Origin: Cenococcum geophilum 1.58 | Lineage: Eukaryota > Ascomycota > Dothideomycetes > Gloniales > Gloniaceae | Assembly: GCA_001692895.1 (NCBI GenBank) | Contig: KV748176.1 | Location: forward strand, 372,001 to 436,000 | DNA: 64,000 nt | Reading direction: 5' to 3' | Shown: positions 18,329-64,000 of the stretch, one piece after another | How positions within the stretch are numbered: the first letter of the stretch is position 1 | How the letters are laid out: each line of letters starts with the position of its first letter | Notes under the pieces: generated by a model | Seen by the model: only the letters and a program-made list of their open reading frames with translations | Database searches by the model: none | What the model was told of the DNA's origin: nothing | Made by a program: the position numbers and the translations under genes

Positions 18329-18392
18329 ATATTATCCGATATCCGGGCTATCCTCGGATAGGATTATTATCCGCCCGACCGGATAGGATAAT

Positions 18393-18410
18393 CTATCCTC
18401 CGCAGGTCTG
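18393..18410 (-). repeat. Right terminal inverted repeat of hAT element
   Basis: Exact reverse complement of 13734-13751. It is followed by the second GCTCTGAT target copy at 18411-18418. Confidence 0.93.
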
Positions 18411-18418
18411 GCTCTGAT

Positions 18419-19687: not shown

Positions 19688-20570
19688 GATGGCTAGGGCT
19701 GGATAATAGGGCCTGAAATCGAAATTTAAGCTCCCCCGGGCGACTAGTAAACGAGTCAGAAAGACTAGGCAACTAAACTACTTACGCTGATGACACTGCA
19801 GAGAGCGACCCTATCCCAATCAGAAGAGATTTCGAAGCGAATGGTTTTTTTTTAAAATAAAAAAGAGCCTAGGTCTTTCGAAAGCAGACTGAAGGCGGCT
19901 TCTAGAAGTGCAGGAATGCGTAGATAGTTAAAATATTTCTATATTCAAGCTAGGCTTTCGCAATCATGAGTGTAGAAACTAGTTATTATGAAATATGTTA
20001 TGTAAACGAAGGAGTTGCGTAGGATTAACAGAGTTCTATAGTTGAGGAAAGAGGTGAAGAGCTGGGATGATTGTGCGATAGAAGATAGGGTAATGGAAGT
20101 ATGAAGCGGAGATATCCACCTTCACTTACCAAGGCTTGGCAGTCAAGACGCCTATTGAAATTGACGAAGTTTGATTCGTAGAGAGATATGGGACTTTATA
20201 AGCTTTAACGGTTTCCAACACTAAAACTCCAAGCCTCAGGGCACGGACGTAATTATACGGGAAACCTAAACGATCATCAAACCCCCAACTAGCAAAAGCA
20301 CATAAGCGACGTAATGGAAAAGCTAATATCAAACCGAACATTTCTTTTCAACGCCCCTGCAGGGGTAATGAAGGATCGACAATCATCCCCAGGACTCGTT
20401 TACCTCGACGTGTGAGTAAAATAGCCGCATCTACCAAATTTATCGGCGATTCCTGAAAACTCAAAAAGCAACAGAAATTTCCTAATTTTTTTTTTACTTC
20501 GGTCAAATTGAAGCTCAAGCCTGCAGAATCTTTTAAGGCTCCTCACCGGAGTTTGGGATGAATATGTCGA
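19688..20570. other. Intergenic region
   Basis: It holds the upstream region of the - strand gene ending at 19687, then about 0.8 kb without a supported gene. There are short runs of T and A (around 19846 and 20486). The small - strand frame 20126-20341 has no recognisable features. Confidence 0.5.
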
Positions 20571-20785
20571 GCACTATTGATACGATTTGAGGAGATTCTG
20601 CAGCGGCTCGAGTCCAATGGGTGGATGATTGCGGAATCAAATAACCCCAATCGAAAAGACTTCCACGACAGAGCGATTCCTGGTATGGACGGTAAGAACC
20701 TTGCTTGTGGTGCTTTGTTATACATTTTCTCTCAGGTGACGATATCCTCCGAGAAATCCTAGAAACAGTCAAAATATTGAAGTAG
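20571..20785 (+). CDS. Possible small spliced gene or gene remnant
   Basis: A frame with ordinary host codon use (…RFEEILQRLESNGW…) runs to 20691. A 44-bp intron-like segment follows (20692-20735, GTAAGA...CTCAG) and the joined frame continues through DDILREIL to a stop at 20783-20785. There is no in-frame ATG before the conserved-looking part, so an upstream exon is missing or this is the 3' remnant of a lost gene. No family is recognised. The clean splice signals and helix-rich composition argue for a real coding past; the short length argues for caution. Confidence 0.3.
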
Positions 20786-20916
20786 AATACAGAAAGTAGT
20801 CATTAGTAACGTAACTAGCGGACACTCATCCCCAGGGAAGAGCGACAGAACAAAAGGCTATCGATTCATACAAGGTGAGCAGGTGCCACAAACATTAATC
20901 AGCAGGTATGATGACC

Positions 20917-22015
20917 CTAGCCTCCGACCTTCTGGATGAGATCCTCACCAGGCTTGACTCGTTGGGCCCACTCGGTCCAGCTTCCATCGTAGAGTCCCTT
21001 CTTCTCACTGGGATATCCGGCCTCAACAAGGGCAGCATCAATGACTGCGGCGGTCACACCAGTGCCACAGCTGCTAATGATGGGCTTGGATGGGTCGATG
21101 CCTTTGAACTTGAAAAGAGCTTGGAGGTCTGATGATGGGAGTAGAGCTTTCGTTTTCACATCAAGAAGGGAAGACACTGGCACGGAGATGGAATGCGGAA
21201 TATGACCGGAAGAAAGCCCTAAGTCTAGTTAGAAGGATGGCCATTCATTGAATAGAACGAATTATAAGCGATGGCAAAGAAACAGGACATGGCTTACCGG
21301 GTCTTGGTTCTGGCTCTGTTCCCTTCCATCTGCCCTCACTTCTAGCGTCCAAGATTTGCACCTCCTCAGCACCCTCTTTTCCTTGTTCCAACGCTATCTC
21401 CTTGACTTGTTCAAATGCCACGACTTTGCCCACGTCAAGCTCCGGGACTGGATACTCCACAGGCTCGACAGCTTCCGGCTCACCGCTTTCTACTGGATAT
21501 CCTTCTTCGCACCACAGCCTGAAGTTGTTCAAGAGGTGTACATTAGAATGTCCGAAGACTTGAAGGGTCCACCCTACCCTTGGCGCGCTGAATATACCCA
21601 GTTCTTTGGAGTCGTACACAACTACGCTGTCGTCCCTCCGAATGCCCAATTGGCCCATTGCTTTGGCAAAGTCTTCCGGAGAGGGAAGCATGTGTGGGTA
21701 AGGAGAGTTTGGATCCTTGACGGCATCCAAGTCAAAAAACCTTGCACGCGGTACACGACCAGCAATGAATGTATCCATCCCGGTCCTACCAGAAGTATCG
21801 TTTGGTAGAAACCATGTTGCGCACAGTGGGATTATGCGAGGTGCTGTAGAAAGCCGACTGTGGATATTCTTTTGAAGAGCAGAATCGAGCTGGGCAGGCG
21901 TGACAAGGTAGGAATCGAGCGTATATTGGGACATGAGTCGTCGTGCTACCCGAGGCAGCTGAGGAGAGAGGTACGAAAGCGGGCGAACGGCGGCGCGGAA
22001 ACTGACAAATAGCAT
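20917..22015 (-). CDS. TUM1: Rhodanese-type sulfurtransferase (thiosulfate/3-mercaptopyruvate sulfurtransferase, TUM1 family)
   Basis: Two exons, complement(20917-21218, 21298-22015), with a 79-bp intron (donor GTAAGC, branch CTAAC, acceptor TTAG), give 339 aa, the normal family length. The first rhodanese domain (about residues 35-180) has VYDSKELGIFSAPRVGWTLQ. The second (about 205-335) carries the catalytic loop CGTGVTA with Cys290. The family moves sulfane sulfur from mercaptopyruvate or thiosulfate; in yeast Tum1 passes sulfur towards Uba4/Urm1 for tRNA thiolation. Residues 1-27 are arginine-rich and free of acids, a likely mitochondrial leader. A second ATG (MSQYTL, residue 28) could give a cytosolic form. 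It is transcribed divergently from APC11. Confidence 0.92.
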
Positions 22016-22492
22016 GACGGAAGCTGTAGGGTATCGGCTCGGATCAGTTCAGATAGAAGAAATGGACATGAAGAGCTCTAAGGGGGAGAGAGATGATGTC
22101 CGGGTGGGGAGTGGGAAAGAGGGGATGCTGGAGCTTGGGATATATTGCTCGTTGCAGATCGGGATCTTCGCGTGTTCTCCTTTGCTGAGGTAGTTATCAC
22201 ATGAAAGAGCTCACCAGCAAGCTTAGAGCAATTTCAAGCTCGTCACTACAGCGTAGACATGGTGGTGAGTCCCATTGATCGCATTACCTGCTGCTGATGA
22301 GAAAATGCCAGCATGTCCGACAGTCTTGGCGGATGTTGTCATTTCGACAAAGTGGGACGTTTATTTTTCGGCCGCCTGTTTGACCGCTTCGTAATCTGCC
22401 GTTATCTGCCAATTAATCTGCCATCGTTGTTTACTTTTATTCCGCTTCACCCCTATCGCCACTATTGTGTGTCTCACTCTATTGAAATTACT
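22016..22492. promoter_or_regulatory. Shared upstream region of TUM1-like and APC11 genes
   Basis: 477 bp separate two divergent start codons, so it must contain both 5' leaders and promoters. No convincing TATA or other named site was identified. Part of it is open in frame with APC11 but lies upstream of the conserved APC11 start. Confidence 0.6.
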
Positions 22493-22982
22493 ATGAAGGT
22501 CACTATCAAACAATGGAATGCTGTGGCTGCGTGGCGCTGGGACATGCCAGACGACGATGTCTGTGGCATCTGCCGCAATCCTTATGATAGCACATGTTCC
22601 AAGTGTAAATTTCCTGGCGATGAGTGCCCTCTCCGTAAGTCCACATCTGCTTGAAAATCGCATATTTTCTTTTATTCAAGCACTAATATCATGTCTCAGT
22701 CCTAGGCGAATGCAACCATTCTTTCCATATGGTAAGCCGAGTATGAACGGTTCATGTTTACGACCGCATTCCTGATTTACAATCTTCTAATAGCACTGTA
22801 TCTTCTCCTGGCTCCGACAAGAAAGCTCTCAAGAGAAGTGCCCAATGTGTCGACAGCGTAAGTTAGGTCCTGCTCTCCCCTTGCACCCCAACTGACCACT
22901 TGCCTCTTTAGCATTCAAGAGTAAGGCACAGGAGGCGACACGCCCCACAACTCAAGGCGGTGACTTTGTCCCACCAAGTTGA
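22493..22982 (+). CDS. APC11: Anaphase-promoting complex subunit 11, RING-H2
   Basis: Four exons, 22493-22634, 22700-22731, 22794-22857 and 22912-22982, join in phase to 102 aa, with GT-AG introns of 54-65 bp. The start MKVTIKQWNAVAAWRWD is the conserved APC11 N-terminus, which fixes the ATG although the frame is open upstream. The RING-H2 ligands are visible: C24, C27, C35, C38, C45, C52, H54, H57, C60, and C74/C77 in CPMCRQPFK. APC11 is the catalytic RING of the APC/C, which binds the E2 and drives ubiquitination of cyclins and securin in mitosis. The C-terminus runs about 20 residues past the RING, which is slightly long. The second exon is only 32 bp. Confidence 0.96.
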
Positions 22983-23455
22983 AATCATCATATATATCTT
23001 GAATGATTCAATCTACAACGAGAAGAGCTGAGCAATTAACGTGGATACCTGAGTGATGATGATCCGCGACTCTTGCAGCAGGACGCGTGAGAGAAAATGG
23101 GTAGGGAGCATAGGACAGAGCCGCAGGATAGCAGCCGGAGACTGTAAAGGCATCGAACGAGGTGGTAAAGATGCGTTCAAAATCTTGGCCTTTCGATTGT
23201 CTGAGATGGACTCGCTGCAGGGATAGAATTTGGCTGGGTATCCCATACCTGCGCGGAAGCTGATGAGAACGTTAGGGTGGACAAATGTAAAATGGTGCAG
23301 ACGCCGCCTGAGTCTGTCGTAAACAATATATGTGACCAAGCCAGTGATATTGTTTGCCTTGGGGCTCAACTCCCGTGCTCCCTCGTCCCTACCATCCTTA
23401 TCGATAAAGCTTCCATCAACCTCTATCCAAACCCCAACCACCTCCCACCCCAACA
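22983..23455. other. Intergenic region
   Basis: 473 bp between the APC11 stop and the next start. The last 60 bases are C-rich, a common fungal 5' leader. The - strand frame crossing it (23013-23582) overlaps the next gene and looks like a shadow. Confidence 0.5.
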
Positions 23456-24322
23456 ATGTCCACCAACCCACAACCACCACCGGCCCTTCTCCCCTCCGTC
23501 TTCCCCCCAGACCACCCCTCTCCCTCCTCTTCACTCCATCCTCCCCCAGAAGTCCCTCAAAACCCTCACGATGCCGCTCCACCGCCCGATCCCACCGACG
23601 AAGCAGCCTACATCGAACCCGACGCCGGGAGCCTGCTGCCCCCTCCCAACTTCAAGCCCTTCTTCACGCTCATCGAAGACGCCGACACAGGCGAGCACTA
23701 CCACCCGTCCGTGCACTACGTTTTCGCCGACGACGACCCGGTCCTGCTGACCGCGGCATCCATGCGCGCCCTCGGCGTCGACGACGCGGCGCTGATCGCG
23801 CGGCCGCCGGAGCCGGAGCCGCTGAACGACGGCGTAAACGCCGACCCAAACCTAGGGCCCGGCGCGCGCGAGAACGAGGTGGACGACGAGGTTCGCGAGT
23901 CTCCACTGCCGCCGTCGCTGCCCGGCGTGAAGGAGCGGTTCTTGCTGCTGGATGTGGGGTCTGATGGCGCGAGCATAGTCGCCGCGCAGAGCTTGAGTGC
24001 CGAGTGGCAGGTCACAGGGACGCAAGTGCGGGCGGCGCCCACGTGGGACGAGGAGGCTGTGGCAGAGGGGGGAGGGATCAGTGGGGGCGTGATGGTGCGG
24101 GTTGAGGGGGTGGAAGTCCCGCAGCCGCAGCAGCAGGGGAAGCAGAAGACGCCGGCGGGGGGAGAGCAGTTATTGCAGGAGGCGAGGGCGGCCGCGGGCG
24201 GGGATCTGTTTGCGGGGATAGAGGCGGTCGTAGGGAAGTTTGAGAAAGATGCGGAAGTTTTGAGGAGGGTAGTTGGAGAGAGGGAGGAGGCCGGAGCTGA
24301 GGGAGGGGAGAGGCAGAGCTGA
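23456..24322 (+). CDS. Unknown proline- and acid-rich fungal protein, 288 aa
   Basis: A single exon with start context AACAATGTC and much higher GC than its neighbours. Residues 1-57 are a proline-rich disordered tail. Residues 62-108 are the most structured stretch, with PNFKPFFTLIEDADTGEHYHP then VHYVFADDDP, and look like a conserved core. Another ordered piece at 156-195 begins PGVKERFLLLDV and ends in VTGTQVR. A glycine/glutamine linker follows (205-235), then a predicted helix (237-280) rich in A, E and R. There is no signal peptide or membrane segment. I cannot name the family. The core suggests a small domain whose disordered flanks may bind partners; no function is claimed. Confidence 0.75.
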   Translation: MSTNPQPPPALLPSVFPPDHPSPSSSLHPPPEVPQNPHDAAPPPDPTDEAAYIEPDAGSLLPPPNFKPFFTLIEDADTGEHYHPSVHYVFADDDPVLLTAASMRALGVDDAALIARPPEPEPLNDGVNADPNLGPGARENEVDDEVRESPLPPSLPGVKERFLLLDVGSDGASIVAAQSLSAEWQVTGTQVRAAPTWDEEAVAEGGGISGGVMVRVEGVEVPQPQQQGKQKTPAGGEQLLQEARAAAGGDLFAGIEAVVGKFEKDAEVLRRVVGEREEAGAEGGERQS

Positions 24323-30761: not shown

Positions 30762-33700
30762 CCATCTCCCTCCTCTTTATCTTCGTCCTTAAAGATACCT
30801 AGCATCTTTAGGTTGTTTACTAGAGGTATAATATCCGTCTAATTAATTTGGTTAATATTGTTACTTATAATACCTAAAGCACCTTCTTCTTCCTCTACAG
30901 CCCGTTAGTCTTATACTGTTACTATAATATTATCTCTTAGTAAGATAATACCATCTCCGTATTCTCGTTATGTAAAAGAGGGGTTAGTTTATATTATGTT
31001 AGTAAGTCCTTTGTCCTGGTAACCTTCCTCTTATTTAGAGTGCACTAAAGCAAATATTTGGTTATCCTATAACATTCGCTCTATCTCTAATGTTAAATAT
31101 GCGCGACCTATTACTCTTAATAGTTATTTAGTTCCCTAATTAATTTGTCTTAGGGTCTTATATTTAATCCGAGGTAGAAAAACTTAAGGGTAATCTTGCC
31201 ACAGCGCTAGCGGAAGCCTATTGTCGATCTAAAGAATCTGCTTATGCCCTTAAGGCTTAGCAGTCTACCTTTGCGAAAGTTTAGCGTCTTTAATACGTTT
31301 ATAAGAAGGTTTGTTTTAAGGAGTAGAAACTTATAGAATAAGGTCTATAGGAACTAGGTAATAAAAGAACAGATTCTCCTTTAATAAAGAAGGAAATAGA
31401 TCTAAGTAGTTTGGCAACTGCTCTTCTTAGGTCCCCCTTAGGTGACTTATTCTTTAGTAATCTTTCTTTATTAATGCTGCCTAACCTAATCTCTTCCGAT
31501 ACTTCTATACCTTTCTTATAGCGTTTCTTAAATTCTCTAGTAGCTCCTAGGTAGTCTTAGTGTAGCCTATCTACTTAATCTTATACTATATCTTGTTATT
31601 AATGTCCTTATAATTAATGATCTTTAAAACTTACTATTTATCTTCTTCTTATTCTCTATATGTGTCTGCTTTATAGACTGGTGGCTTAATATTCCCATAT
31701 ACTAGCTCTAGTATTGCGATGTGCTATATAGGGTAGATTTTTATTTTAGCTGGTAGGTTCAACTTAAATATAACTAGTAAAATTCTTTATATAATTTTGA
31801 AAGGTCCTAGTCTAACATAGTCTAATTTCTTGCTTAGTCGTTAACTCTTAAAATTTTTATATAGTAGCTATACTTTATCTCCCTCCTTAAGATCTGGTCC
31901 CTTAGATCTCTTAGCATTATAGTACCTTTTTATTCTCTCTTGTACTTTTTTTGCTAATTCCGTAAGGTTTGTATAAAGATTTATTAATATCTTTATTCTT
32001 TCTTTAGCTGTGCTACTTGTTTTCTTTACTTATTATAGTAATAACGATGTTTTTGGCTTATATCCGTAATTTGCCTTAAATAGTAATATACCTATTTCTT
32101 CTTAAGGTGTTGCGTTATATGCGAATTATATAACTGGTAATAGCGATACCTAATTATTCTGTGCATAATTAATATAATACCTTAGATACTATTCTAGCGT
32201 CTAATTTAACCTTTCCGTTTAACCGTCTGTCTGTAGATAATATGCAGTAGAAGTTGCTGCTTAAACTTCTTACTCTGCTAAGAATACTTCCCAGAATGCT
32301 GTTACGAATCTTAGATCTCTATCTAATATAATTTTGCTTAGTGCTCTATATTTTATAAACACTTCTTTAACATAGATTCTAGCAATATCCTCCGCTAAGA
32401 TTTCTTTTATATATACTATAAAATATCCCCACTTTATAAGCTTATCTACTATTACTAAAATCGCGTTATAATCTTATTCGGTAATAGGATTTTTTAATTT
32501 TAGCAACTTAATAATAAAGTCCTATAATATAACCTCCTATAGTCTCTCTAATATTTTAATAGGTTATAGCCCTCTATATAGCTTATGCCTTGTTAGTTTA
32601 TTCCTTTAGCAATCTAGATATTTCTTTATAACCCTTCTAGCTATTCTCTAGATTCTATTAATAATGTACTCCTCCTAAAGTCTTAACACTAAGCCTGTAG
32701 CTCTATTATATCCTTAGGTTAGTCCCTTATAGAAGTCTTTTATAAACTACTCTGCTATGCTTTTTAGGATGTACTTTACTTTTTAATTTTCGTATATATC
32801 TGTCTGTAGATCTTCTAGCTGTGCTTTTAGAATTCTTTATACCTAAAAGCTTTCTAGTATCTTGTAGACTTTCTCTAGTTTATCATCTTCTTAAGTTGCT
32901 GTGATTTTTAGATAATTATACCTAATTAATCCGTCTATATCTTTTCGTAATAAAGCCCCTAATGGCTTTTCCTTATTTTGTAGTTTAGCTTTACGGCTTA
33001 GAGTATCTGCCCGCGTATTGTCTGTACCTTTAGTATACTAAATCTTAAAATAGTATTCCGTAAGCATCTCTGCCCATCTAACCTATCTTTAGTTAAGTTC
33101 CTTTGTCGTTAGGAATCCTATTAGGTTCTTATAATCCGTCTTAACTATAAATGGTTTCTCTATACCTTATAAAAATGCTCTTTATTTCTTTAATACTGTA
33201 ACTATACCTAATAACTCCTTGTTATAGATGTTATAGTTTAACTCCGGTAGTATTATCTTCCGACTATAGTATACCACTAAGTGCTATCTATCTTAATGCT
33301 TTTATATAAAGTATGCCCCTAGTATATAGTCTAATATATCTATCTCTATAACCGTCTCTAGTTCTAGTTAATAGATCTTAAGAACTAGCTTCTAGGTAAA
33401 TAACTCTTTGACTTTCTTAAAGAGTTCTTTTTACTCCTCTCCCTATGCCTATAGTTCTTCTTTCTTTATTAACCGCGTAAATGGCTTAATATCCTTTAAC
33501 CACTGCGCTATAAACCTTCTATAGTAATTGTAAAACCTTAGGAATAATCTTAACTATATAACGTTCTTTAGTTCCTACCAATTTACTATAGCCTCGATCT
33601 TCTTTAGATCTATACTAAGTTAGCCTAGTTTAATAATGAATTTAACGAAATTAGTCTTCCTAGTAAAGAACTCGTATTTCTTAATTACTACTAGCATCTG

Positions 33701-36700
33701 TTCTTCTTATAGTCTCTTTAAAACCTATTTAATGTATTCCCTATATTCTTCCTTAGTTATTAAGTAGATAATAATATTATTAAGATATACCATAACAAAT
33801 TTATCTAAGTGTTCTTTTAATATATTGTTAATACGCTTCTGGAACATTGCTAGTGCGTTTATAAGCCCGAATTATATAACTAATAGTTTATATAGTCCTT
33901 CCTTTAACCTAAAGGCTGCTTTCTATTCATCGCCTTCTTTAATCCTAATTTAATAGTACGCCTATCTTAGATCTATCTTTGTGAAGATTTGCGCATTACC
34001 TATCCTGTCTTAGATTTCGCTAATTAAGGGTAAAGGATACCTATCCTTTCTAGTAATGCTGTTTAACTGTCTATAGTCGATATATAGCCTTAGTTTGCCA
34101 TTCTTTTTTAGTATAAATAGTACTAGATAACCCGCTAATAACTGCGATGGTTTAATATATCCTTTTTATAGATTTTCCTAGATAAACTCTTTTAATGCTC
34201 TACCTTCTTCTTTGGTAAGCTTATAGATTAGAAAAAACTTTAAATTTATTTCTAGTTCTAACTCTATCTTATAGTCCTATATTATATATTCTAATAGCTT
34301 TTTACTTTCTAGTAACTATAGTTTCTTGCCGTACTTATAGTATCTCTTTGGTATATAACTTAGTCCTTTTTCTATTTCTTTATAGGTTGCTCCTACTTAG
34401 TATCATACTAACTTAGCTTATTGTTGCATTTTATAGCGTTAAGTATCTTTAATATTGACTTAACCTATAATCTAATTAATTCTTAGATTATATTCCTATA
34501 ACTAAGGTATACCTAATACTGCCTCGTTCCGTCCTAATGGTAGAATATTAAAAGACATCTTAATTTGTCTCCCTTTAATAATTATCTAAATAGGTCCTGT
34601 TTTAAGATTAATAATCCCTCCTCTATAGGTTATTGGATCTCCTAAAATTGTAACTAATAGGTAAAGTTGCTTCTTCTATCTATAAGGTAGCCCTATTCTC
34701 TTAACTGCTACTAGTAAAATATGGTTTTGTATTGCTCTACTATCTATTAGCGCTTTAAACTGCTAATCTTACTAATTAATCCGTAAATTTAGGTGTTATC
34801 CTTAAATTCCTTTAAGGGTTTAAGGCTCTACTACTAGCTCCCTTTAGTTCTATAGGCCTCTACTTTTCCTAACTATTAGCTACTTAATCCTAGTATATTT
34901 AGCTTACTCTTTAGCCAATGCCTAGTTCGCTTTTTATCTTTAATATACTATAGACACGTATTCTCTAGGTATTCCTACCACTATTATCCGTCTAAGCATT
35001 CTTCTATAAGGAATCTTCCTAGTTAAAGTACTAAACTTCCTTCCTTTTAGACCTCTGCTAGATGCCATCTATATATATATTTGGCATTCCTATATTATTA
35101 CTTATCCGTTATCTAGTATATCCTTATAGGGTATTTCCGATTCTTTTTTTTTAGATTCTTATATATTTCGTATATATTGTCCACGTACGCAATCTATAAT
35201 AACGTATAGTGTGCTAGGTGCTTTAGGTTAACTCTTAGCTCGTCTTTATCCCTAAGTTTAAACCTTTATCGTGCTAATTTAAACGTTATAACTTNATTTA
35301 CAGGTACTAAAATGCGTCTCTCGCTTCTTTAGTCCTCTAAATGTTCCTCTAGATCCTTTGACGTTATAATTAAGGCTCCTTTAATATACGTTATGGCCTT
35401 TTCTATAATTGGGTGGTCTTAGATAATTTTTTTATCTAACCATATATAGAAATCTTCCTACTTATTATTGTGCCTTTGCCTATACTACTTTTAGTATAGC
35501 TGCTAAAGTGTATACGGCCTATTTATAAGGAAGTATCTTCTTACTACTATATTATAACAGCCCTTTATATGTCGTTCCTTAAACCTAGTTGGAATCCCTA
35601 AATCCTCTTTATCTTCTAGTTCGGTAAGCTACTTAGCTCTTAGTGTGCCTGCTCTCGGCCTATTAGTAATTCTTTATACTAGTGCTCTGTCCTTTATACG
35701 TCCCAATATACTAGATCTCTTATCTAGTTTCTATTCTTGCTATATAATAATTCTTTACCTAAATTCTTCTATAGTTTCTTTTAGTTTGCGCCTTGCGCTC
35801 TAATCCTTAAAGTCGTCTTACTTCTTAATCTTAGTATTAACTTTTTAATCTTTAGTCTAAACACTTTATTTAACTAGTAAATCCTTTAGGTCTATATATT
35901 CGTCTCCTAGTCTAATTGCTGTTTATGCCGTAGATTCTCTGATCTATAAAGAAGCCCCTTACCTCTTGCCTATAGGTGCCCTTATTTATACTCTGAAATC
36001 TTAGTCCCTTAGATTCTTTAATCCTAAGCTTGCTTCTAACTTAAGCTTAGCTCCCGCCTTAGTCTAGCTAGGCGTTTATAGTGTTCTTATCTCGTCTTAA
36101 GAGTCTTAAATCTCACTTATCTCGTCTTAAGAGTCTTGTGCCTATGGGAACTTCTATTCCGAGCTTATTCGTATGTTTCCAAACTAAGCTACTGCCCTAC
36201 TTCATTGGTTATCGTCTGTTATAGGTCCTTAAGCTTGCCTTATCTCGTTTTAAGAATCTTAGTTATTTCTTATTTTGCTGTAAGAATCTTAAGCCTTTGG
36301 CCTTTTGCCTTTATTAAGTGCCGAAGTGGTTTACTATCCTACTTCTCTTGCGTCTTGTGAAGCGATAGACATTATGTCTAGTAGGGTTTCGATCCCTACT
36401 AATGTTTCCTATTCTATAGTGAAATTATCCTCTACCTCTAGTATAACATCTCTAAGGTCTGCTCGCTCCTAGTAAGCGGCTCTTATTGCCTTATTATTAT
36501 AGAATGTTTCGCCTATATTAAATTCATCGTCCTTAATGTCTAATCTGCGAACTAGTTTATTAGTTCCTCTATATCCTATAGGTGCTAGCTCTTATAGCTA
36601 ATAGCTTACGCCATACTTGGCGTTCTTATGAATTTAATATGCATTATTGTAATAAAACGCAAAACTTTTAATTAAACATTCTTTTGTTCCTCGCAGTATA

Positions 36701-43380: not shown

Positions 43381-44479
43381 TTATAGGACTAAGGAGTAGA
43401 GGCTAAACTAGGGATCTTAGTAGTAGAAGACATTTAGGTAGACTTTATAGCAAAGTTAATAGTTTAAAGATAGAGCTTATATAATTACAGAAAATAAAGT
43501 CACTTCGCAAGGGATAATAAAGATAATTAGAGTAACTATATAATAAAGGGAACTAGACTAGTAAAAGATATATACGTATAGAGAGGTAATAGTATACTGC
43601 GAGGAACCAAAGAGTATTTAATTAGAAGTTTTGCGTTTTGTTATAACAACGCATACTAAATTTATAAAAACACTAAGTATAGCGTAAGCTATTAGCTATA
43701 AGAGCTAAAATCCTTAAAGTATAGAGAAACTAATAAACTAGTTTATAGATCGGATATTAAGGACGATAAATTTAATATAGGCGAAATATTCTATAATAAT
43801 AAGGTAATAAAGGCAGCTTATTAGGAGTATATAAACCTTAAAGATATTATAATAGAAATAGAGGATAATTCCACTATAGAATAGGGAACATTAGTAGGGA
43901 GTAAGACCCTACTAGACATAATATCTATCGCTTTATAAGACGCAAGAGAAGTAGGATAATAAGCTACTTTGGCACTTAATAAAGGCAAAAGGCCAAAGGC
44001 TTAAGATTCTTAAGATAAGATAAGAGATAACTAAGATTTTTAAGATAAGATAAGGTATACCTAAGGACCCACAATAAACAGAAACCGATGGAGTAGGGTA
44101 ATAGCTTAGTTTAAAGATATATAAATAAGCTTAAGATAGAGTTTTCTATAGGTATAAGATTCTTAAAAAGAAATAAGTAAGATTTAAGACTCTTAAGATA
44201 AGATAAGAATACTAAGTAAGCCTAGTTAAACTAAGGCTAGAGTAAGGCTTAAAGTAGAAGTAAGCTTAGGATTAAGAATTCTATAAAACTAAGATTTCAA
44301 AACACGAATAAGGATTATTAATAAGATTAAGAAGTAGGAAGACTTTAAGAATCCACTTATAAGATATAAAAAGAAAGAAACTATAGAGGAATTTAGAATA
44401 AGAATTACCTTATAGTAAAAATAGAAACTAGATAAAAGATCTAGTATATTAGGTCGTATAAAGGACAGAGCACCTATAT

Positions 44480-44588
44480 ACTAGCGTCTATATATTGCTT
44501 GGCAGCATCTACCTCAGTAACGTACAATACTAAGACCTCCCGCAATATTCGCGAATATCAAACGCAGTTACTATATAGCTAATTCACT
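44480..44588 (+). repeat. Split direct repeat A1 of the Ngaro element
   Basis: Begins ACTAGCGTCTATATATTGC. It recurs at 48952-49059 with only scattered transitions. Confidence 0.85.
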
Positions 44589-47500
44589 TTTAATATCGCT
44601 AAACTCATTAATATTCATTATATATTTATCATCCATTCGTTTAAGAATTATTTTATAACGCTATTACCGCTTATAACTAACTAGGAGACTTATACGCGTG
44701 TATAATCCCAATAAGTAAACCCACCTAGACGACCTACCTTAACTACACCATCGTCTACAACCGCTACACCCTNCTCNNCTAGTNCTATAATGCCGTCNNA
44801 GGCTAATATACGCGCCNCTGCNNTAAAAGAGCGNNAAATTGCTAAAGAGTAAAGGGAACAAGCCTAAGATAAAAGGGAGATTTAGAAGTATAAGGAAGAG
44901 CGTAAAGCCCACCTAGTGGAGGAGGCTCGCCAGTATAAATACCACCTAGCTCAAATGGCTTAATTATAGTTAGGCTTAGCCGCTTCGGCCTTACAGGCCA
45001 CTACAACAGCTGCTACAGCTAATGTCCTTAGTAAGCCTCTCTTTTCTAGCATAAAGTCGCTCGAACTCCGCCTTTCTGGCATTATAAAAAGGGATTACCT
45101 GGATATTTTTAAGGGTACCTTTAATCTAGTAAACCTCGCCCATCTTTAAGTCTATACCGCTTAAATTAAGATCGCCAATAAGACACGGATTAAGAATAGT
45201 ACTTTGGTTATAAGGAAGGCAAAGGTAAATAGGAAGCTATTTATAGATAAAGGCGTTTGGTTTAAAGGTTTTACTAACTACATAGTTATTACTGGCACCC
45301 TTTATATATGCCCACTAGACCTTATCGCTAGCATACTTCTCTAAATAAACACGATTTATACCTTATTAACCTAGTATATCTAGGTAGGTTATATACTTAA
45401 CTTAGCACTTAACTATTATACCTTTATAATAACTAATGGCCAACTAGAGCCTACTAATTGGCAAATACTAGCTTAGTATATAGCGCCATACCTTATAATA
45501 TCTAATGCTATCGGCTTCGCCGCCTTAAAGAGACCTAGGTTAGATACCTCCTATACCTCTAATACCTACTATAGGTTTAATAGCAGAGGCTGCAATAATA
45601 TAGCTTGTAAATACCTATATAAGTGCTTAAAGTATGGTAAAGATTACACTATATTATCTAAAGCTTGCGCCTAAGAATAGTAAGGTGAACCTTATAAAGT
45701 AGGGTCTAGCCTAATAATAATACTAACTTTAATTATACGCCTAGGACCTAGGCCTAATACGTTATTATTATTCTCTACCTTTATAGAGGTAAAGGCTCTC
45801 TATTACTCTCCATTACCCCTAAGGATCTTAGCATAGCACTTCCTTTTATCTAACTACCTGGGTAATTTACTAGCTACCTTAATAGGCATCCTAACCTATA
45901 GCTGCGAGATAGGAGCCGAGTTTATTTCTACCCTAAGATCTTATAGGAACTATAACTCCTCTTAGGATAACGCCGACTTTATCTCTAAGAAGATAATATT
46001 AGACCTTAAAAAAGGATATATTAGAATTGCGATAGGGCCTATTATAGTTTTACCTCTTAGCCTAGTGCCAAAATCGGATAGAGGATACCGCCAAATTCAC
46101 GATCTCTCCTTTTTACTAGCATTTTTAGTTAATAACGCAATCCTAGAAGAATATGGAGCACTAGTATACACTACAGTTACCGCTATTTAAGCCTATATTA
46201 TTTTTGTAGGTTATAGATATCTACTGCTTAAAAGAGATATTAAAGACGCGTTCTATATAGTCCCCCTATCTTATAGGGTAAGAACATTAATAGGCTTCTT
46301 CTAGGAAGGTGTTACCCACCAGGAATACTACCTATCCTTTAATCTTTAAACTGCGCCGCTTATATTTAACCTCTTCGCGGAAGGCCTATACTAAATACTC
46401 TATTTATAACTACCTTATAAGGTAGAACACTACCTAGATGATTTTATCTTTATCCTTGCCAACCTAAATAACTTAGTGGCTATTACCTAGACTTATATCT
46501 CTATTACTAACTCCCTAGGTATCCCTTAAAATGGCTTTAAAGATATAGCAGGAACTATTATTAAAGTTCTAGGATATACTATTAACACCATATAAATGTA
46601 AATGTAATTATTACCACAGAAACAATTATGTGCTATTAAGAAAGTCACTACCGCACTCTAATATGGCTTATTATTATTCTTTTAAGCCTAGTAGCTTACG
46701 GGCTACCTTATATAGTGCGCCTACGTAATTAAACTTAGTTAATCTTACTCTAAATCCCTCTAGATCTTTATTACTACTTAGCTGGAGACTTTAGTAAATA
46801 AGTATAAACCTAGGCGATTTAGTACTAAGTTATAAAGTAACTTATATATCTGGCTTAACCTACTTACTATGAGTAATAGGGTATTATTCTTTAACAACGT
46901 TAAGCGTACCCGTATTTATCTCTTTACTAACGCCTCTACCCAGTTTAAGTTTGGCGGCTTTTACTTTTTTAAGGAACTTAAATATAAGGATAACTAGTAG
47001 TAGTATATAGCTAACCTCCCTTAATCTTAGGCGTTTAGTATATTGCCTAAGCCTAGTTAATAAATAGACTATATTAATCTAAAAGAGATGCATGCTATTG
47101 CTTACGTATTTAATCTATAGTCTACTAACTAGTAGTATAGCGCGCTATCTATTTATACTAATAGCATAATGGTTTACTAAGGCATTAAGAAGACTATTAT
47201 CCGTAGTATAGTAAACAAATTACTCTGTAAGATTATGCTAGCTACTATAGCTTACGATATTATAATATCCGCGAAGTAGATCCTAGGTAATTTAAATAGC
47301 TTAGCTAATATACTATCTTAATTCCAGGCCACGGCTATCTATTAGTTCTGCCCATACTAGGCCTTTAATTTATTACTACTAAAGCTAATAAGTTTTTAAT
47401 AGGTGCCGTAAACCTAATAGACTACTTATAACCGCCTATAAACTTTAAAGATAATATTAACGCGCTATCTAACCTCTACGCGCTCCTTCTCTGGAATGGC

Positions 47501-48508
47501 CTTACGCCAGTAACCCATAGGAACTATTCCTTAGTAGTTAATAGCTGGAAGTTATACTACGCACTTAAAGGAGTCTCCCCTTACCTAGCTAAGCCGCGTA
47601 AACTAGGTAAATGGATTACCTACTACACGTTTAGTACCTCCTAGCTATAGATAGGCAGGCTTAAGGCCGAAACCTTATAAGCCTATATCTCCGTAATTCG
47701 CTTACACCACGTGGATTATAGTATCTTAATTATAGCATTTAAGGATCCTATAGTACACCAATTACTCGCTAGAGTAGCCGCTATCTCTTCCTTAGCAAAA
47801 AAGGATAAGTAACCTATTACTAGGGATATTCTAGCCCAGGTAGTAATATACGGCCTATTGCTACCAGATATCAACACTAATGCCGTATTCACCCTCGCAT
47901 TTGCTAGATTTCTATAGATAGGCGAGATTATATATACTATAGCGGAGCTTAAGAACCGAACGACCTTTTTAGCAAAAAAGGCCACTTAATATAATATTAC
48001 CTTTACGCCTAGTAGGATAATATTCCGCCTTAAATAGAGCAAAGCCAATAAGTAATACTAGGGCGTTAACGTCGCTATCGCGGTGGTAGGCGGCCTATTA
48101 TGCCTAGTTGCTGCTATAATAAAGCTATTTAATAGGGACCCTTAACCCCTTAACTCTCCCTTATTTAGTCTTAATAGTAAACTTTTTACTTCTCTAGGGG
48201 TTTATAAGATCCTTTCCTCCTATCTAGTAGCTGCTAGGATTAACCTAAGTAGTTACTTAAACTACTCCTTCTACTAGGGCGCTGCCCAGTTCGCTAAAGA
48301 TTTAGGGTATTTACACTAGTAAATTCAGCAGCTAGGTCAGTAGTTATTAGAAGCCTTTTGCCTATATATTAAGACTAAGACTACTAACCTTTATCGCCTT
48401 AACTCTTACTTTTAGCGTGGTATACCGCTCTTAGCGTAAGAATTACTATATAATAGGTTAAGATATTAAGAGGGCCGCTAAGGCGCTAGTGGTAAGCAAG
48501 CTAATAGC

Positions 48509-48535
48509 GATTTTCTATACCAGGCATAGAAAATC
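48509..48535. repeat. 27-nt palindrome, also present at 5864-5890
   Basis: Ten-base arms GATTTTCTAT and ATAGAAAATC with a 7-nt loop. A copy with three differences lies at 5864-5890 inside the unrelated 10.6-kb Gypsy element. The right flank TAATTGGT is shared too when strands are matched. Confidence 0.75.
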
Positions 48536-48562
48536 CTAATTGGTTGGCTTATAACTTAGGGT

Positions 48563-48768
48563 TGGCAAAATATGGCAGAATACGACAATATGGCAGAACT
48601 TGGCAGAATGCGACAATATGGCAGAATTTGGCAGAATGCGATAATATGGCAGAATTTGGCAGAATGCGATAATGTGGTAGAATTTGGCAGAATGCGATAA
48701 TGTAGCAGAATTTGGCAGAATGCGATAAGGTGGTAGAATTTGGTAGAATATAGCAGAATGCGGTAATG
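48563..48768 (+). repeat. Minisatellite, 28-bp unit, about seven copies
   Basis: The unit contains two TGGCAGAA words followed by TGCGACAATA or variants. The last unit is irregular. It lies inside the Ngaro element between the recombinase region and repeat B1. Confidence 0.9.
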
Positions 48769-48796
48769 TCTTGTTAGGCGCAGGAGCTTCGCTTAG

Positions 48797-48951
48797 GGAT
48801 ATCTGGCCGCTTTAGGGCAAATCCTTAGTAGATTTAAGTGCTAGGAACTAGTAAAACTGCTAAGAACTAGCCCTAGAGCGACCTTATAGCCCTACGCCTC
48901 CTAATTATATAAAAATTAAAATATCCCCTTACGTGACTGCGATAGATAGAT
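48797..48951 (+). repeat. Split direct repeat B1 of the Ngaro element
   Basis: Contains ATCTGGCCGCTTTAGGGC and ends GCGATAGATAGAT. It matches B2 (about 49219-49374) almost base for base. Confidence 0.85.
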
Positions 48952-49059
48952 ACTAGCGTCTATATATTGCTTAGCAGCATCTACCTTAGTAACGCACAAT
49001 ACTAAGACCTCCTATAATATTCGCGAATATTAAACGCAGTTACTACGTGGCTAATTCGC
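48952..49059 (+). repeat. Split direct repeat A2 of the Ngaro element
   Basis: Directly abuts B1. Homologous to 44480-44588. Confidence 0.85.
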
Positions 49060-49218
49060 TTTCCCTACCCGCCATCCCTTGTACTTAGTATATATTATAT
49101 ATAGATAGCGCTTTAAGGCAATTCTTTAGTAGGTGCTAGGAACTAGTAAAACCACTAANAGCNAGCCTTAATGCGACNACTANAGTTANATAGTCTTNNA
49201 GCNATAGGCTTGCGGTNN

Positions 49219-49374
49219 NGGANATCTGGCCGCTTTAGGGCAAATCCTTAGCAGATTTGAGTGCTAGGAACTAGCAAAACTGCTAAGAACTAGCCCTAGA
49301 GCGACCTTATAGCCCTGCGCCTCCCAATTATACAAAAATTAAAATATCCCCTTACGTGACTGCGATAGATAGAT
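49219..49374 (+). repeat. Split direct repeat B2 of the Ngaro element
   Basis: Copy of B1 ending at the element's right border. A third, diverged B-like piece (about 49109-49165) lies between A2 and B2. Several bases here are ambiguous. Confidence 0.8.
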
Positions 49375-49862
49375 AAAGAATTACTAATAGGCCTAAAGTA
49401 GGCACACTAAGAGCTAAATAGCTTACCGAACTAGAATAAGAAAAGGATTTAGGGATTTTAACTAGGTTTGAGGAATAATATATAAAGGGCTATTACAATA
49501 CAGTAATAAGAAGATACTTCCTTATAAATAAACTGTATATACTCCAGCAGCTATACCAAAAGTAGTATAGGTAAAGGCACAACAATAAGTGGGAAGATTT
49601 CTATATATAGTTAGATAAGAAAGTTATTTAGGACCACCCTATTATAGAAAAGGCGATAAGTCACATTAAAGGAGCCTTAATTATAATGTTAAAGGATCTA
49701 GAGGAGCGTTTAAAAGACTAAAGAAGTAAAAGGCGTATCTTAGTACCTGTAAATAAAGTCGCAACGTTTAGATTAATACGGTAGAGGTTTAAACTTAAAG
49801 ATAAGGATAAGCTAAGAGTTAACCTAAAGTACTAAGCATATTATACGTTGGTATAGATTATA

Positions 49863-50045
49863 TGTAACCGACTACGCGTGCTGCCGAGACAGCCTCAACG
49901 CCACCCAATATATTGATCGCAGATCAATATTGCTTGCAGATCACTGTTCCCATTTCAGCTACCATTTTATATATATATTCCACTTGATACCCATAGATTT
50001 ACAATCAAGTTGCTTGTTCAATTCCCATACACTGCAAAGCTTACA
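49863..50045 (+). repeat. Solo LTR of the Copia family seen at 13308-13553
   Basis: 183 bp, starting TGTAACCGACTACGCG and ending GCTTACA. Exact TTATA copies flank it (49858-49862 and 50046-50050). No internal Copia sequence is present, so it arose by LTR-LTR recombination. It is clearly richer in GC than its surroundings and than its relative at 13308. Confidence 0.9.
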
Positions 50046-53000
50046 TTATATATATAGATAATATATATAATATATACAGAGCACCTAAGAATAAATATCG
50101 AAAATACCCTATAAGAATATATTAGATGGCAGAAGAATAAAAGTATTAGAATACTAAGTATATACATAGCTGGCATCTAGTAGAAGTACAGAAGTTAGGA
50201 GACTTAATACTTTAGCTAAAAAGATTCCTTACGGAAGAATGCCTAGATAGATAATAGTAGTAGGAATACCTAGAGAATATATATCTATAGTATATAGAAG
50301 ACAAAAAGCAAACTAAGTATTAGCTAAAGGTAGACTAAGTATAAATAGGATTAAGCAGCTAATAGTTAGGAAAAGTAGAGGCCCACAAAACTAGAGGGAA
50401 TTAGTAGTAGAGCCTTAGACCCTTAAAGGAATTCAAAAACGGCACCTAAATTTATAAGTTAAATAGTAAGATTAATAGTTTAAAGTATTAATAAATAGTA
50501 GAGCAATAAGGAACCATATCTTACTAGCAGTAGTTAAAAGAATGGGATTACTATACAAAAAGAAGAAGCACTCTTACCTATTAGTGATAATTTTAGAAGA
50601 TCTAATAGCCTATAGAGGAGGCATTATCAACCTTAAAATAGGACCTATTTAGTTAACTATTAAAGGGAGATAAATTAAGATGTCTTTTAATATATTACTA
50701 TTAGGAAATAATAAGGCAGTACTAGGAATACCTTAGTTATAGGAATATAATCTAAGAATTAATTAGATTACAGGTTAGGTCGATATTAGAAATACTTAAT
50801 AATATAAAATATAATAATAAGCTAAGATAGTATAGTACTAAGTAGGAGTAACCTATAAAGATATAGAAAAAGGATTAAGCTATATACTAAAGAGATACTA
50901 TAAGTATAGCAAGAAACTATAGTTACTAAAAAGTAAAAAGCTGTTAGAGTATATAGTATAGGACTATAAGATAGAATTAAAACTAGGAATAAGTCTAAGG
51001 TTCTTTCCAATCTATAAGCTTACTAAAGAAGAAGGTAGAGTATTAAAAGAGTTTATCCAAGAAAACCTATAGAAGGGATATATTAGACCATCGTAGTCAT
51101 TAGCGGGTTATTTAGTACTATTTATACTAAAAAATAATAGCAAACTAAGGCTATATATCAACTATAGATAGTTAAACAGCATTACTAGAAAGGATAGGTA
51201 TCCTTTACCCTTAATTAGCGAAATCTAAGATAGGATAGGTAACGTATAAATCTTTACAAAGATAGATCTAAGATAGGCGTACTATTAGATTAGGATTAAG
51301 GAAGGTAACAAATAAAAAGCAGCCTTTAGGTTAAAGGAAGGACTATATAAACCATTAGTTATGCAATTTAGGCTTATAAATGTATTAGCAACGTTTTAGA
51401 AGCGTATTAACAATATATTAGAAGAACACTTAAATAAATTTATTATAGTATATCTTAACGATATTATTATTTATTTAATAACTAAGAAAGAGTATAAAGA
51501 ATACGTTAAATGGTTTTTAAAGAGACTACAGGAAGAACAGATACCAGTAATAATTAAAAAATGCAAGTTTTTTACTAGAAAAACCAATTTTGTTAAATTT
51601 ATTATTAAACTAGGCCAACTTAGTATAAATCTAAAGAAGATTAAGGCTATAGTAAATTAGTAAGAACTAGAAAATGTTATGCAGTTAAGATTATTCCTAA
51701 GGTTTTGTAATTACTATAAAAGGTTTATAGCGCAATAGTTAAAAAATATTAAACCATTTACGCGACTAATAAAGAAAGAAGAACTATAGGCATAGGAAAA
51801 GAAACAGCGAAAACTATTTAAGAAAGTTAAAAAGTTATTTACTTAGGAGCTAGTTCTTAAGATCTATTAACTAGGACTAAAGACGGTTATAGAAATAAAT
51901 GCATTAGACTTTATACTAGGGGCGTGCTTTATATAAAGATATTAAAATAGATAGCACCTAGTAGCATATTATAGTTAGAAGATACCACTACTAGAGTTAA
52001 ACTATAACATCTATAATAAGGAGTTATTAGGTATAATTACAGTATTAAAGAAATAAAGAGCATTCTTATAAGGCATAAAAAAACTATTTATAGTTAAGAT
52101 AGATTATAAGAACTTAACAGAATTCCTAATAATAAAGGAACTTAATTAAAAATAGGTTAGATAGGCAGAGATGCTTATAGAATACTATTTTAAGATTTAG
52201 TATACTAAAGAAATAGATAATATATAAGCAGACGCTCTAAGTTAAAAGGCTAAACTATAAAATAATAAAAAGCTATTAGGGGCTTTACTGCAAAAAGATA
52301 TAGATAAACTAATTAGATATAATCACCTAAAAATTATAGCAACTTAAGAAGAACTAGATAAAGTTTACAAGTTACTAGAAAGCTTTTAGGTATAAAGGAT
52401 CTTTAAAGCACAGCTAGAAGAACAGTTAGAGTATCTAGAAGAAGAAATACTATATAAGTATAGAGAGGCAAAGTATATCCTAAAAAGTATAGCAAAGTAT
52501 TTCGTAGAAGATTTCTATAAGGGGATAACTTAGGGACACAATAGAGCTAGGGGCTTAGTATTAAGACTCTAAGAGGAGTATATTATTAACGGAATCTAGG
52601 GCTTAGCGTAAAAAATTATAAAAGAATATCTAGATTGCTAGAGAAATAAACTAATAAGGCATAAGCCGTATGGAGGGCTATAACCTATTAAAATACTAGA
52701 GAGACTATAGGAGGTTATATTATAGGACTTTATTATTAAGTTACTAAAGTTAAGAGACCCTATTACTAAATAAGATTATAATATAATCTTAGTAATAATA
52801 GATAAGCTTATAAAGTAGGGATACTTTATAGCATATACAGAAGAAATATTAGTAAAAGACGTCGCTAGAATCTATATTAAAGAAGTATTTATAATATATA
52901 AAGCACTAAGTAAAATTATATTGGATAGAGATTTAAGATTTATAGTAGCATTTTAGGAGGTGTTTTTAGCGGAATAAGGAGTTAGAGTGGTAACTTTTAC

Positions 53001-60973: not shown

Positions 60974-62828
60974 ACTATTCTTTATAATTACTCTTCCCTT
61001 TTAATATAGGAACAGCCCTAAAGGAGCTATAGTATTCCTTCTTTTTTTATACTATGTCCGCCATAATAAATAATTAATCGGTTTAACTATATTATGCGTA
61101 GCGTTAATCTATATCGGTTTATTATAAATTTCTATCGCACTATACCCGGCTCTAAATTTAAGGATTTATAGCTTTATATTAACTAGTTAATTAAAAAATA
61201 AAATGGTAGCTAATAGAGCTTTAATTGAAGCTGCAAGAGGGCTTACAGTATAACCTGTTAGGCTACTAAGTGGGCTAGTGGAAATGACATATATGATACT
61301 CTATGAGGAAGAATCTAAGGGGCTCGATGGCCCGAGAAAGTAACTACACGATGGCCCGCGCGCTGTCACGTGACCTCTCGCGTGACACGCCGCTGACCTC
61401 AAAGAGACTGCCCAAGTACCCCCCCCCCCTACCAACAAAAGGCATAGTAGTAAAGGCAAAATGTGGAAAATATAAGGCTATTTAGAAGGCTCGATTAGAA
61501 CGTGTGAACGATTAAAGATTTTAATGTTATATAACATCGTTTCAAATGATACTTGCCAAGAACCAGGTTCGATATTTTAAACGACTAACTAAATACTGCT
61601 AGTAGGTGTCGATCGCTCGTCTCGACTTGCTCATACTAAATATCGAACGAATATATCGCTCCATCGAAACCCCCCTATTGAGGTGTGTTCATCGTTGTTG
61701 TTGATTGAACTCGATGCCTGGAGAAGAGGAATTACCACCCTCAGCCCGTGTCCGCGCATGTGAAGATGACTAGACTTAGTTTCAAGCGCACACCATCACT
61801 TCTCCCAGCTGACAGCTATTTGCGGTTGAGGGTGAGCGGCCTTGTACGACCCCTCAGCTTACCAAAACCGAAAGAATTCAGCATAATATCATTTTGCGCA
61901 GCTTGAGTCCTTGATGATGGCCCCAGAAAGTATTTGGAAACCATTTTGTAGGGAAGACAAATGAGCGGACGGGGTTTTCGATGTTTATTGGAGAGAATCT
62001 AGACTTTGTTTCTTATTGGGAAATAGTTATCAAAATGTCTGCCCCACATCCCTTTCGGCAAGCGCCTACATGTCGAGTAAGGAATATCCGAAAGAATGGT
62101 TACCTGAATCGATTGGATCTCACATGCATCCGTGGTGACAAGCACCACCACATCCTGCCGGTGCCGGTTCCATAATGGACCGTTGCCGAATCAGAGTGAC
62201 AGGAGGTATGGTTCCTGGCGGAATCCAGCAGCGCATGCGTGGGAAATCATACCGGAAGGGAGGGTTGATGCTCGCGGTCATTTCTTTTTGGTGTTTTTCT
62301 GCAGGCGGGAGGGCAGATGACATGGCCTAATCTAATGGATTCGAACAGCGCTCTTTGTGCAAAGATGGTGAGACCTGGCATGGCTGTCAGAAAGTGTCCG
62401 CCTTTGTTGGATTTTGCGGTCGCTCTCGGCTGCTGCACCCATGACGACGTGTCATCTCGCATTGGATACCCCTGGTTCGCAGTCAGCCTTTGGTGGCTTG
62501 TATTGCTGGTAGCCCAGTCGAATGAAAGCAAGCAGCGCGCCTGATCAACACTCACCCGCACTGAAGAATATCCACAAGTTGCATCATCGGCCTGTCTGCC
62601 GCGCAGCTCCCGACGCCGGCTGTGGATCGTGCTTTCTGTCTCGCGCATGACCTAGTTAAGCTGCATAATCGACTACATGTACTTTCAACTCTACCTACAC
62701 CACTCCGCATTCTCTATTTCTACTTTCCTTATATAGTGTGCAACCGTCCTACATATACTGGCATCACTCGCTTCCACCAGGCCTCTCCCACGGCCACACT
62801 CGCGCCCGCGCATGGCGAACGCTCACAC
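60974..62828. other. Transition from repeats to host DNA; upstream region of lipase gene
   Basis: 60974-61290 is AT-rich, RIP-like, unassigned repeat remnant. GC rises from about 61300. A GTCACGTGAC palindrome (61365-61374) and a run of eleven C (61419-61429) lie near the edge. The rest has no supported gene. Frames on both strands at 62000-62650 overlap each other and show no motif. The last few hundred bases must hold the lipase promoter and leader. Confidence 0.5.
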
Positions 62829-64000
62829 ATGTCGTTCCTGTATGATTCCGTCTTGCCTAGCACGACCAGGTTGTATTCCGGCAGAGGCGCCGACCTGAAA
62901 GATAATCAGAGACGATTGAGGAAAAGCCAGAGCCATGGCGGCTTCCTCACACCTCTTATACACCTTGTGAGGGACCCTGTGGGAACAATTGGAAGCGCAG
63001 TCGGGACGTTCCAGGATGCTTCTGAGCCGGCCGCCCCGATTGGTCCCGATGATGACAGTCGCAAACAGATTCTATATTTGCGGATGAGGAATGTGAGTGT
63101 CGGACCATTCCAATTATAACAATTGTGGATATTGATCTGGCGGTTTTCAGGCCGAGTCATATGAAGAATGGCGAATAGCTGCCACAGAACTCGACATGCT
63201 TGAGGGCAATGATACTTGGAAACATGAGGATGAATCTGCAGAGTACGACGCCGCCTTAGTCGAGGCCCGCCTCAAGCAACTTAATGAAGCCTGTATGAGC
63301 TGCGATGTTAACAAGATGCTCTTCCTCATCCGAACATCCCTAACCCGTGGTCTTGGAGGCATGGGCGATCTCAGGCTCTACAAACATTGTCATATTGGTA
63401 CAAAGGCCCTGATAGAACGCTATATTGAATCTGCCCAAAAAACTCTCACGGCGTTGCTGGATGTGTCGGCGAAACAGAGCAATAATGCATGCGTAGAGCC
63501 AAGGATTGTGCTCGAACAGCTTCTAGCTGCGCGTCAATCGTTTGGTCGAAGCGCATTGCTTCTCTCAGGAGGTGGGACTTTTGGCATGAATCACATTGGA
63601 GTTGTCAAAAGCCTCTGGCAAGCTCGCCTCCTGCCACGTATCATCTCCGGCGCATCAGCTGGTAGCATAGTTTGCGCGGTACTTTGTACTAAAACAGATG
63701 CCGAAATCCCTGATGTACTCCAGGAGTTTTGCTATGGAGACCTAGCAGTCTTTAGCAAAGAGGGGCAGGAAGATGGTGTCATGGACAAAGCGGCACGCTT
63801 CCTCAAACACGGTGCCCTCTTTGATATCACCCACCTAGTTACTGTCATGAGGAATAGGATTGGTGATATGACCTTTCAGGAGGCCTACAACCGGACCCGA
63901 AGAATCTTGAACATTACCGTGTCGAGTGCGAGCCTGTACGAGCTACCCAGATTGCTCAATTACGTCACAGCCCCTAATGTCATGATTTGGTCTGCAGTGT
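62829..64000 (+). CDS. Patatin-domain triacylglycerol lipase (Tgl3/4/5 family), 5' part
   Basis: Exon 1 is 62829-63092, a 58-bp intron follows (GTGAGT...TTTCAG), and exon 2 from 63151 is open to the window edge, giving 371 residues so far. Residues about 89-200 match the N-terminal DUF3336 domain typical of these lipases (SYEEWRIAATELD, then DLRLYKH). The patatin fold starts with the oxyanion loop SGGGTFG (about 227-233), and the nucleophile elbow GASAGS places Ser257. The catalytic Asp lies beyond the window. In yeast these enzymes hydrolyse stored triacylglycerol on lipid droplets. The ATG chosen (MSFLYDSVLPST) follows a CACAC context. The frame is open further upstream, so an earlier start is possible. 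Confidence 0.93.

Follow-up and report, generated by a model that had tools for sequence, protein, structure and literature searches.

A multi-copy family of probable Ngaro retrotransposons with split direct repeats and RIP-like decay in Cenococcum geophilum

While retrotransposons of the Ngaro superfamily, which carry a tyrosine recombinase (YR), have seldom been described in filamentous ascomycetes, they are not without precedent there. A survey of fungal Ngaro elements recorded them in Basidiomycota, together with a single truncated ascomycete copy, in Neosartorya fischeri, that lacks terminal repeats (Muszewska et al. 2013; PMC3783388). A complete Ngaro family (RYN) was reported in 2015 from the dothideomycete Zymoseptoria tritici, where one family makes up 0.06% of the genome (PMC4502367), and a Sporothrix paper lists Ngaro annotations (PMC9281073). 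Here we examine a 64,000-nucleotide stretch of the dothideomycete Cenococcum geophilum 1.58 (assembly GCA_001692895.1, contig KV748176.1, positions 372,001 to 436,000; hereafter the window), which contains a 4.9-kb element that a first-pass annotation had read as a Ngaro-type retrotransposon. That annotation held such elements to be much less common than long terminal repeat (LTR) elements in filamentous ascomycetes; they are indeed seldom described, but the complete Z. tritici family makes them less unusual than it implied.

Our analysis indicates that the element very probably belongs to a Ngaro-superfamily family degraded by repeat-induced point mutation (RIP), a class assignment drawn from structure, motifs and insertion pattern. 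The data are best explained by the recent expansion of a family to about 90 or more copies, followed by mutation of these through RIP or a RIP-like process. We favor Ngaro because the element combines split direct repeats, an RT–RNase H region–recombinase series on one strand (RT, reverse transcriptase), no match to a methyltransferase or DDE integrase, no target-site duplication (the lack of which is a Ngaro feature) and further copies in the genome. This kind of element is known, though the family itself may be undescribed in the open papers searched: the words Ngaro and Cenococcum occurred together in one paper, in unrelated places of the text covered (PMC7181583), and the paper on the C. 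geophilum genome contains neither 'DIRS' nor 'tyrosine recombinase' in its main text, its supplements lying outside the search (PMC5023957).

Element structure and copies in the genome

Repeat finding on window positions 43500–50500 recovered two long direct pairs, 44475–44590 / 48947–49062 (90%) and 48797–48952 / 49220–49375 (96%), whose borders, as given below, were set by per-copy mapping. They delimit an element at 44478–49374 with the order A1–coding–B1–A2–B2, in which B1 is joined directly to A2, A1 is 90% identical to A2 and B1 is 95.5–96% identical to B2. The borders proposed at first, 44480–49374, were correct to within 2 bp, the doubt concerning an AT dinucleotide present at both ends. 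The features of the element are:

44478–44594, plus strand: A1 repeat, left end, starting AT-ACTAGCG; 90% identical to A2; left junction found in 20 of 21 copies, including the window copy
44718–45690, plus strand: gag-like region with a Cys-rich stretch near 45591–45670; in the RT frame, broken by TAA/TAG stops alone
45894–46820, plus strand: reverse transcriptase, degraded; Pfam PF00078 over about 46218–46583; YLDD present in the window copy
46821–47480, plus strand: putative RNase H region, degraded; motif blocks kept in a second family
47462–48457, plus strand: putative tyrosine recombinase, degraded, in a frame different from that of the RT; from catalytic motifs and comparison
48560–48768, plus strand: 28-bp minisatellite, from repeat finding; the lengths of most elements differ by multiples of ~28 bp
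48797–48950, plus strand: B1 repeat, ~96% identical to B2
48951–49062, plus strand: A2 repeat, abutting B1; from repeat finding and per-copy mapping (mapped 48950–49062)
49130–49177, plus strand: partial B-like 48-mer (repeat family D5) between A2 and B2, a third B-like copy at 81%
49220–49372, plus strand: B2 repeat, forming the right end (...GATAGATAG), with the dinucleotide AT directly after it at 49373–49374; from per-copy mapping (mapped 49220–49373)

The forward coding frames are broken almost solely by TAA and TAG, and the sole listed open reading frame of at least 80 amino acids is on the minus strand and irrelevant to the element. The gag-like region gave no Pfam match; we take its Cys-rich stretch to be zinc-knuckle-like.

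To place the window copy in its genomic context, we searched the assembly (177,193,698 bases, 162 contigs). The 19-base B1/A2 junction occurs 88 times at up to one mismatch (49 + 39) and on many contigs, compared with 0 in the reversed control, which argues that the split-repeat arrangement did not arise by chance; a 34-base piece of A occurs 138 times at up to two mismatches (control 0). Searching with the B1–A2–B2 block, for which 40 of 256 candidates were scored, gave 42 matches: the window copy, 39 full-length matches at 93–95% and two short weak ones. We fetched 20 further copies from the best of these, which therefore have the right-hand block by selection; the A1 repeat at the expected left end in 19 of the 20 is independent of that selection (the remaining copy, L025, has no left end within the stretch fetched). 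With the recombinase region of one copy as a protein query, the genome yielded 123 matches; 121 of 315 candidates were scored, so these counts are lower bounds. The A1–coding–B1–A2–B2 structure seen by the first-pass annotation is thus borne out by repeat finding and by the junction count, and other copies with the same A and B repeats, which it had proposed to list, occur in the genome.

A second family shows 43–47% identity to the first in the YR (19 of the 123 matches listed) and mostly 46–52% in the RT. One of its copies, L059, has the following repeats, the A pair 91% and the B pair 93% identical:

1016–1136 of L059: A1
5594–5756 of L059: B1
5752–5872 of L059: A2
5952–6113 of L059: B2

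Copy L058 is 91% identical to L059; compared as DNA at E ≤ 1e-5, it matches the window element in a minisatellite alone, which lies in opposite orientation. At 957–5703 it has an A1–coding–B form without A2–B2, which is possibly a product of recombination between B1 and B2. Could the split repeats be an artefact of assembly or a chance arrangement? Runs of N that the assembly places inside the window copy would speak for this. We nevertheless reject the idea as having virtually no probability, given the dispersed junctions and a second family with an A1–B1–A2–B2 series of its own that shares no detectable DNA similarity outside the minisatellite.

The minisatellite, of TGGCAGAAT type, lies between YR and B1 in both families and in opposite orientations (L058 5171–5372, window 48560–48768). 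The genome contains 227 exact occurrences of one of its 19-mers (control 0), some of them at listed places without a listed Ngaro match.

Reverse transcriptase, RNase H region and putative recombinase

The RT of the window copy matches Pfam PF00078 at E 3.8e-5 (23.9 bits, under the curated cut-off of 29.6), and each of the 18 copies scanned gave a match at E ≤ 1, the best reaching 1.9e-8. The RT of a relative in the same genome, 46% identical, reaches E 5.8e-14 and 52.7 bits, above the 29.6 cut-off. The RT relative L060 (G000:C77:616000-616930; 46% identical, 4 stops in the match, strong RVT_1 match) is perhaps a third family. One scan of viral_contigs found no RT relatives, and a PDB profile search with an RT–RNase H alignment of 18 of the 21 copies (L025, L029 and L034 left out) returned no meaningful match. 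In the RNase H region, conserved blocks are kept between both families, and these we read as RNase H motifs.

The putative recombinase follows the RNase H region without space for another domain. Tyrosine recombinases have the catalytic tetrad R-H-R-Y (PMC3212892). We built YR alignments from 16 of the 21 copies (L026, L027, L029, L031 and L032 left out) and from 18 (L026, L031 and L032 left out for indels). Over 18 copies, the catalytic columns hold R in 6, H in 6, the second R in 11 and Y in all 18; all four residues are kept in 2 copies, and the other residues found there are mostly those that transitions or stops would give. The window copy encodes Y alone, with the first R, H and second R missing. 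The tetrad is spaced R-116-H-3-R-31-Y; the corresponding spacings are 116-3-32 for P1 Cre, 96-3-32 for XerD and 96-3-31 for lambda Int (tetrad letters checked in these sequences). The blocks FLRxGE, HSFR, LGxW and LY are common to two families that are ~45% identical, the second having GFLRIGE, NHSFRRG, LGRW and LYY among its blocks.

When a profile of both families (5 copies each) was compared with P1 Cre in hhalign, 172 columns were aligned with R, HxxR, W and Y in register, at a score of 28.0 (P 0.0043; 30 column-shuffled controls scored 10.8–20.1). This in-register match arose only once the second family had joined the profile. The first-family profile gave no support, either with Cre (43 N-terminal columns aligned at a score of 23.9, not controlled by shuffling) or with a joint reference (17.9; 5 shuffles 12.7–20.0, reversed 17.6).

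Several results weigh against a recombinase and, more broadly, against the protein assignments. The hhalign probability of the Cre match is low (8.1% local; 18.4% global, P 0.00028), XerD and lambda Int gave no meaningful alignment to the two-family profile, and the joint three-protein reference reached a probability of 0.9%. Pfam returned no YR match for the window region, 16 copies, C-terminal pieces of 10 copies or 5 second-family copies, and PHROGs and NCBIfam none over 16 copies; a genome-wide search with PF00589 yielded 0 matches at E ≤ 0.01. Profiles from two YR alignments found nothing meaningful in PDB, AlphaFold models were uninformative (mean predicted local distance difference test scores of 33.8 and 34.3), and the RNase H region had no Pfam match. 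The identities of the middle protein as RNase H and of the last as a tyrosine recombinase are therefore best described as supported but not proven. The RT–RNase H–recombinase order claimed at first holds insofar as the RT precedes the recombinase and is found by Pfam; the other two domains are assigned by motifs and comparison, with no domain-database match. These elements would be examples of recombinases that escape standard domain searches after RIP-type decay.

No methyltransferase match was found in the three forward frames at E ≤ 0.1, a negative weakened by decay, and there is no room for this domain between the RNase H region and the YR. Aspartic protease and DDE integrase (rve) likewise had no Pfam match in those frames at that threshold, with the same weakening by decay. 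Alternatively, the element might be a PAT-like DIRS-group member in which the methyltransferase has been lost, a reading we consider improbable. PAT elements too have split direct repeats, and a derived Pat1-like lineage without methyltransferase is described from a nematode in a paper that calls structure alone an unsafe classifier (PMC4157794). However, the gap between RT and YR is filled by the RNase H region in both families (641 nt by our borders for the window copy and about 744 nt for a copy of the second family), which leaves no methyltransferase space, and the internal repeat pair lies downstream of the YR, as the same source gives for Ngaro; the order A1–ORFs–B1–A2–B2 (ORFs, open reading frames) is likewise found in L059. 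Ngaro membership remains the preferred classification. Grouping of the RT with LTR elements, which the first-pass annotation would have counted against it, is a poor refuter because a published tree places the main Ngaro lineages with LTR elements (PMC4157794).

A Dirs1-like element was rejected for want of inverted terminal repeats: 43500–50500 contains two inverted pairs of at least 20 nt, neither at the element ends. Inverted arms were sought around the B1/A2 junction, where TATATA palindromes alone were found.

Decay, repeat coupling and integration

Among 4061 columns across 21 copies, 937 vary with the minor base seen at least twice, and in 935 of them the variation is confined to C/T or A/G; averaged over 210 pairs, copies differ by 9.2% for transitions and 0.08% for transversions. 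A mutable C is followed by A in 230 cases, G in 156, T in 106 and C in 33 (n=525), and a mutable G is preceded by T in 165, C in 155, A in 65 and G in 25 (n=410). Every piece examined in every fetched copy has at least 12 stops, and the TpA/ApT ratio is 1.5–1.9 over much of the window. RIP is listed as 'Probably' for C. geophilum in the source cited (PMC5445492), and the decay pattern reads as RIP or a RIP-like process acting on a young family. Two points weigh against our overall reading of the element: CpA leads among mutated sites without dominating, unlike textbook CpA-only RIP, and the window copy codes for nothing functional. Amid the AT-rich sequence of the window, islands of about 48–53% GC without TpA skew occur at 18001–24000 and 62001–64000, and are perhaps gene islands.

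The sole non-transition variable column among the 42 B repeats, edges aside (the outermost 5 columns were not covered), is a 1-bp deletion; 6 elements have it in B1 and B2 alike, and the other 15 lack it in both. Since independent evolution would put the deletion in one B only, B1 and B2 look like copies of a single template, which is what the split-repeat replication model demands. Against this, the shared deletion is a single event, and gene conversion could also explain it.

Unoccupied sites were sought for 20 insertions in the window and the 20 fetched stretches, and found for the window copy and L023; L027 and L036, picked for their non-AT right dinucleotide, were then searched genome-wide, and four listed loci were aligned for each. 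The site of the window copy is:

35376–35781, minus strand: unoccupied insertion site of the window copy, 87% identical across the joined flanks; one locus

This is the empty site that the first-pass annotation had located in a related Gypsy copy near 35670–35710. It lies ~1.3 kb 5' of a same-strand RT and RNase H with a Tf2-1-like SH3 domain after them (29.8 bits against a cut-off of 30); we take these as one Gypsy-type element. The unoccupied sites of L023 are at window 33561–34161 and 51077–51671, the first overlapping the RT of a Gypsy-type element.

All 4 insertions, compared with 11 unoccupied loci, fit integration without target duplication and without loss (the window pair has three mismatches beside the junction, and for one L027 locus the aligner put the gap elsewhere), in agreement with the absence of duplication claimed at first. 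This fits a tyrosine recombinase acting at a short shared core, whereas a DDE integrase would leave a duplication. It also bears on whether the element could be an LTR (Gypsy) element with rearranged terminal repeats, an idea for which one may cite an RT recognised by the general RVT_1 model alone. The lack of duplication in 4 of 4 insertions with unoccupied loci is joined by outer ends that carry different repeats (A at the left end, B at the right) in 20 of the 21 copies, the remaining one having no left end in the stretch fetched, by the absence of a significant match between one copy's RT and the window Gypsy RT (22% over 90 aa, E 3.2) and by the lack of an rve match in the three forward frames at E ≤ 0.1; we reject this idea too, at a negligible probability, and retain Ngaro.

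Left ends read target + AT + ACTAGCG and right ends GATAGATAG + dinucleotide + target, while the internal junction of the window copy reads GATAGATAG-AT-ACTAGCG. Read from the copy ends rather than from a regular-expression count (wrong for L024 and L029), the right-hand dinucleotide is AT for 19 of the 21 copies and AA for the other two, against an AT background of 9.3% in the window (plain count); T precedes the left AT in 18 of 20 copies. At L027 and L036 the unoccupied dinucleotide is AA, with AA kept at the right end and AT at the left, so that in both informative insertions the element supplies the left dinucleotide and the target the right one.

These junctions suggest a possible route of integration. 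The element RNA would be reverse transcribed, with the internal B1–A2 block serving as template to complete the element ends, and the outcome would be a circular DNA with the B–A junction ...GATAGATAG/AT/ACTAGCG.... Strand exchange by the element's tyrosine recombinase would then join this junction to a target that offers a matching A(T); the element's AT would stay at the left end, the target's dinucleotide would remain at the right, and no base would be duplicated or lost. Whether Ngaro integration in this genome is precise and polar in this sense, joining a B–A circle junction to the target at an A(T) core of two bases that is preferentially preceded by T, seems to us evenly balanced. If true, the many matched unoccupied sites in sister transposons would provide a base-level record of YR-retrotransposon integration and a target rule. 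Because copies sit inside other repeated transposons, unoccupied sites are readable for several of them, which opens the integration step of YR retrotransposons to study from sequence data alone.

Comparison with described elements

Our data take Ngaro elements beyond isolated reports, showing a burst of many copies, from at least two families, within a large fungal genome affected by RIP; what they add is the copy number, the second family and an exact insertion record. Like the fungal Ngaro elements surveyed, those of C. geophilum have RT, RNase H and YR (the latter two as predicted here), no methyltransferase and A-pol-B-A-B repeats, but unlike the N. fischeri copy, described there without terminal repeats, they occur in many copies with intact repeats (PMC3783388). 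The RYN family of Z. tritici is likewise a Ngaro-superfamily member in a dothideomycete; by its description it is set apart as 1 family, compared with at least two here and 88 junctions of one of them (PMC4502367). DIRS and PAT elements also combine RT and YR, PAT with split direct repeats, but are given as encoding a methyltransferase, and the Dirs1-like ones have inverted repeats (PMC4157794). Ngaro elements of Cafeteria burkhardae, for which the text cited gives no junctions at base level, share the A1–ORFs–B1A2B2 structure, a YR replacing the rve integrase, many copies and isolated AB repeats, and differ in host and in targets (PMC8547959).

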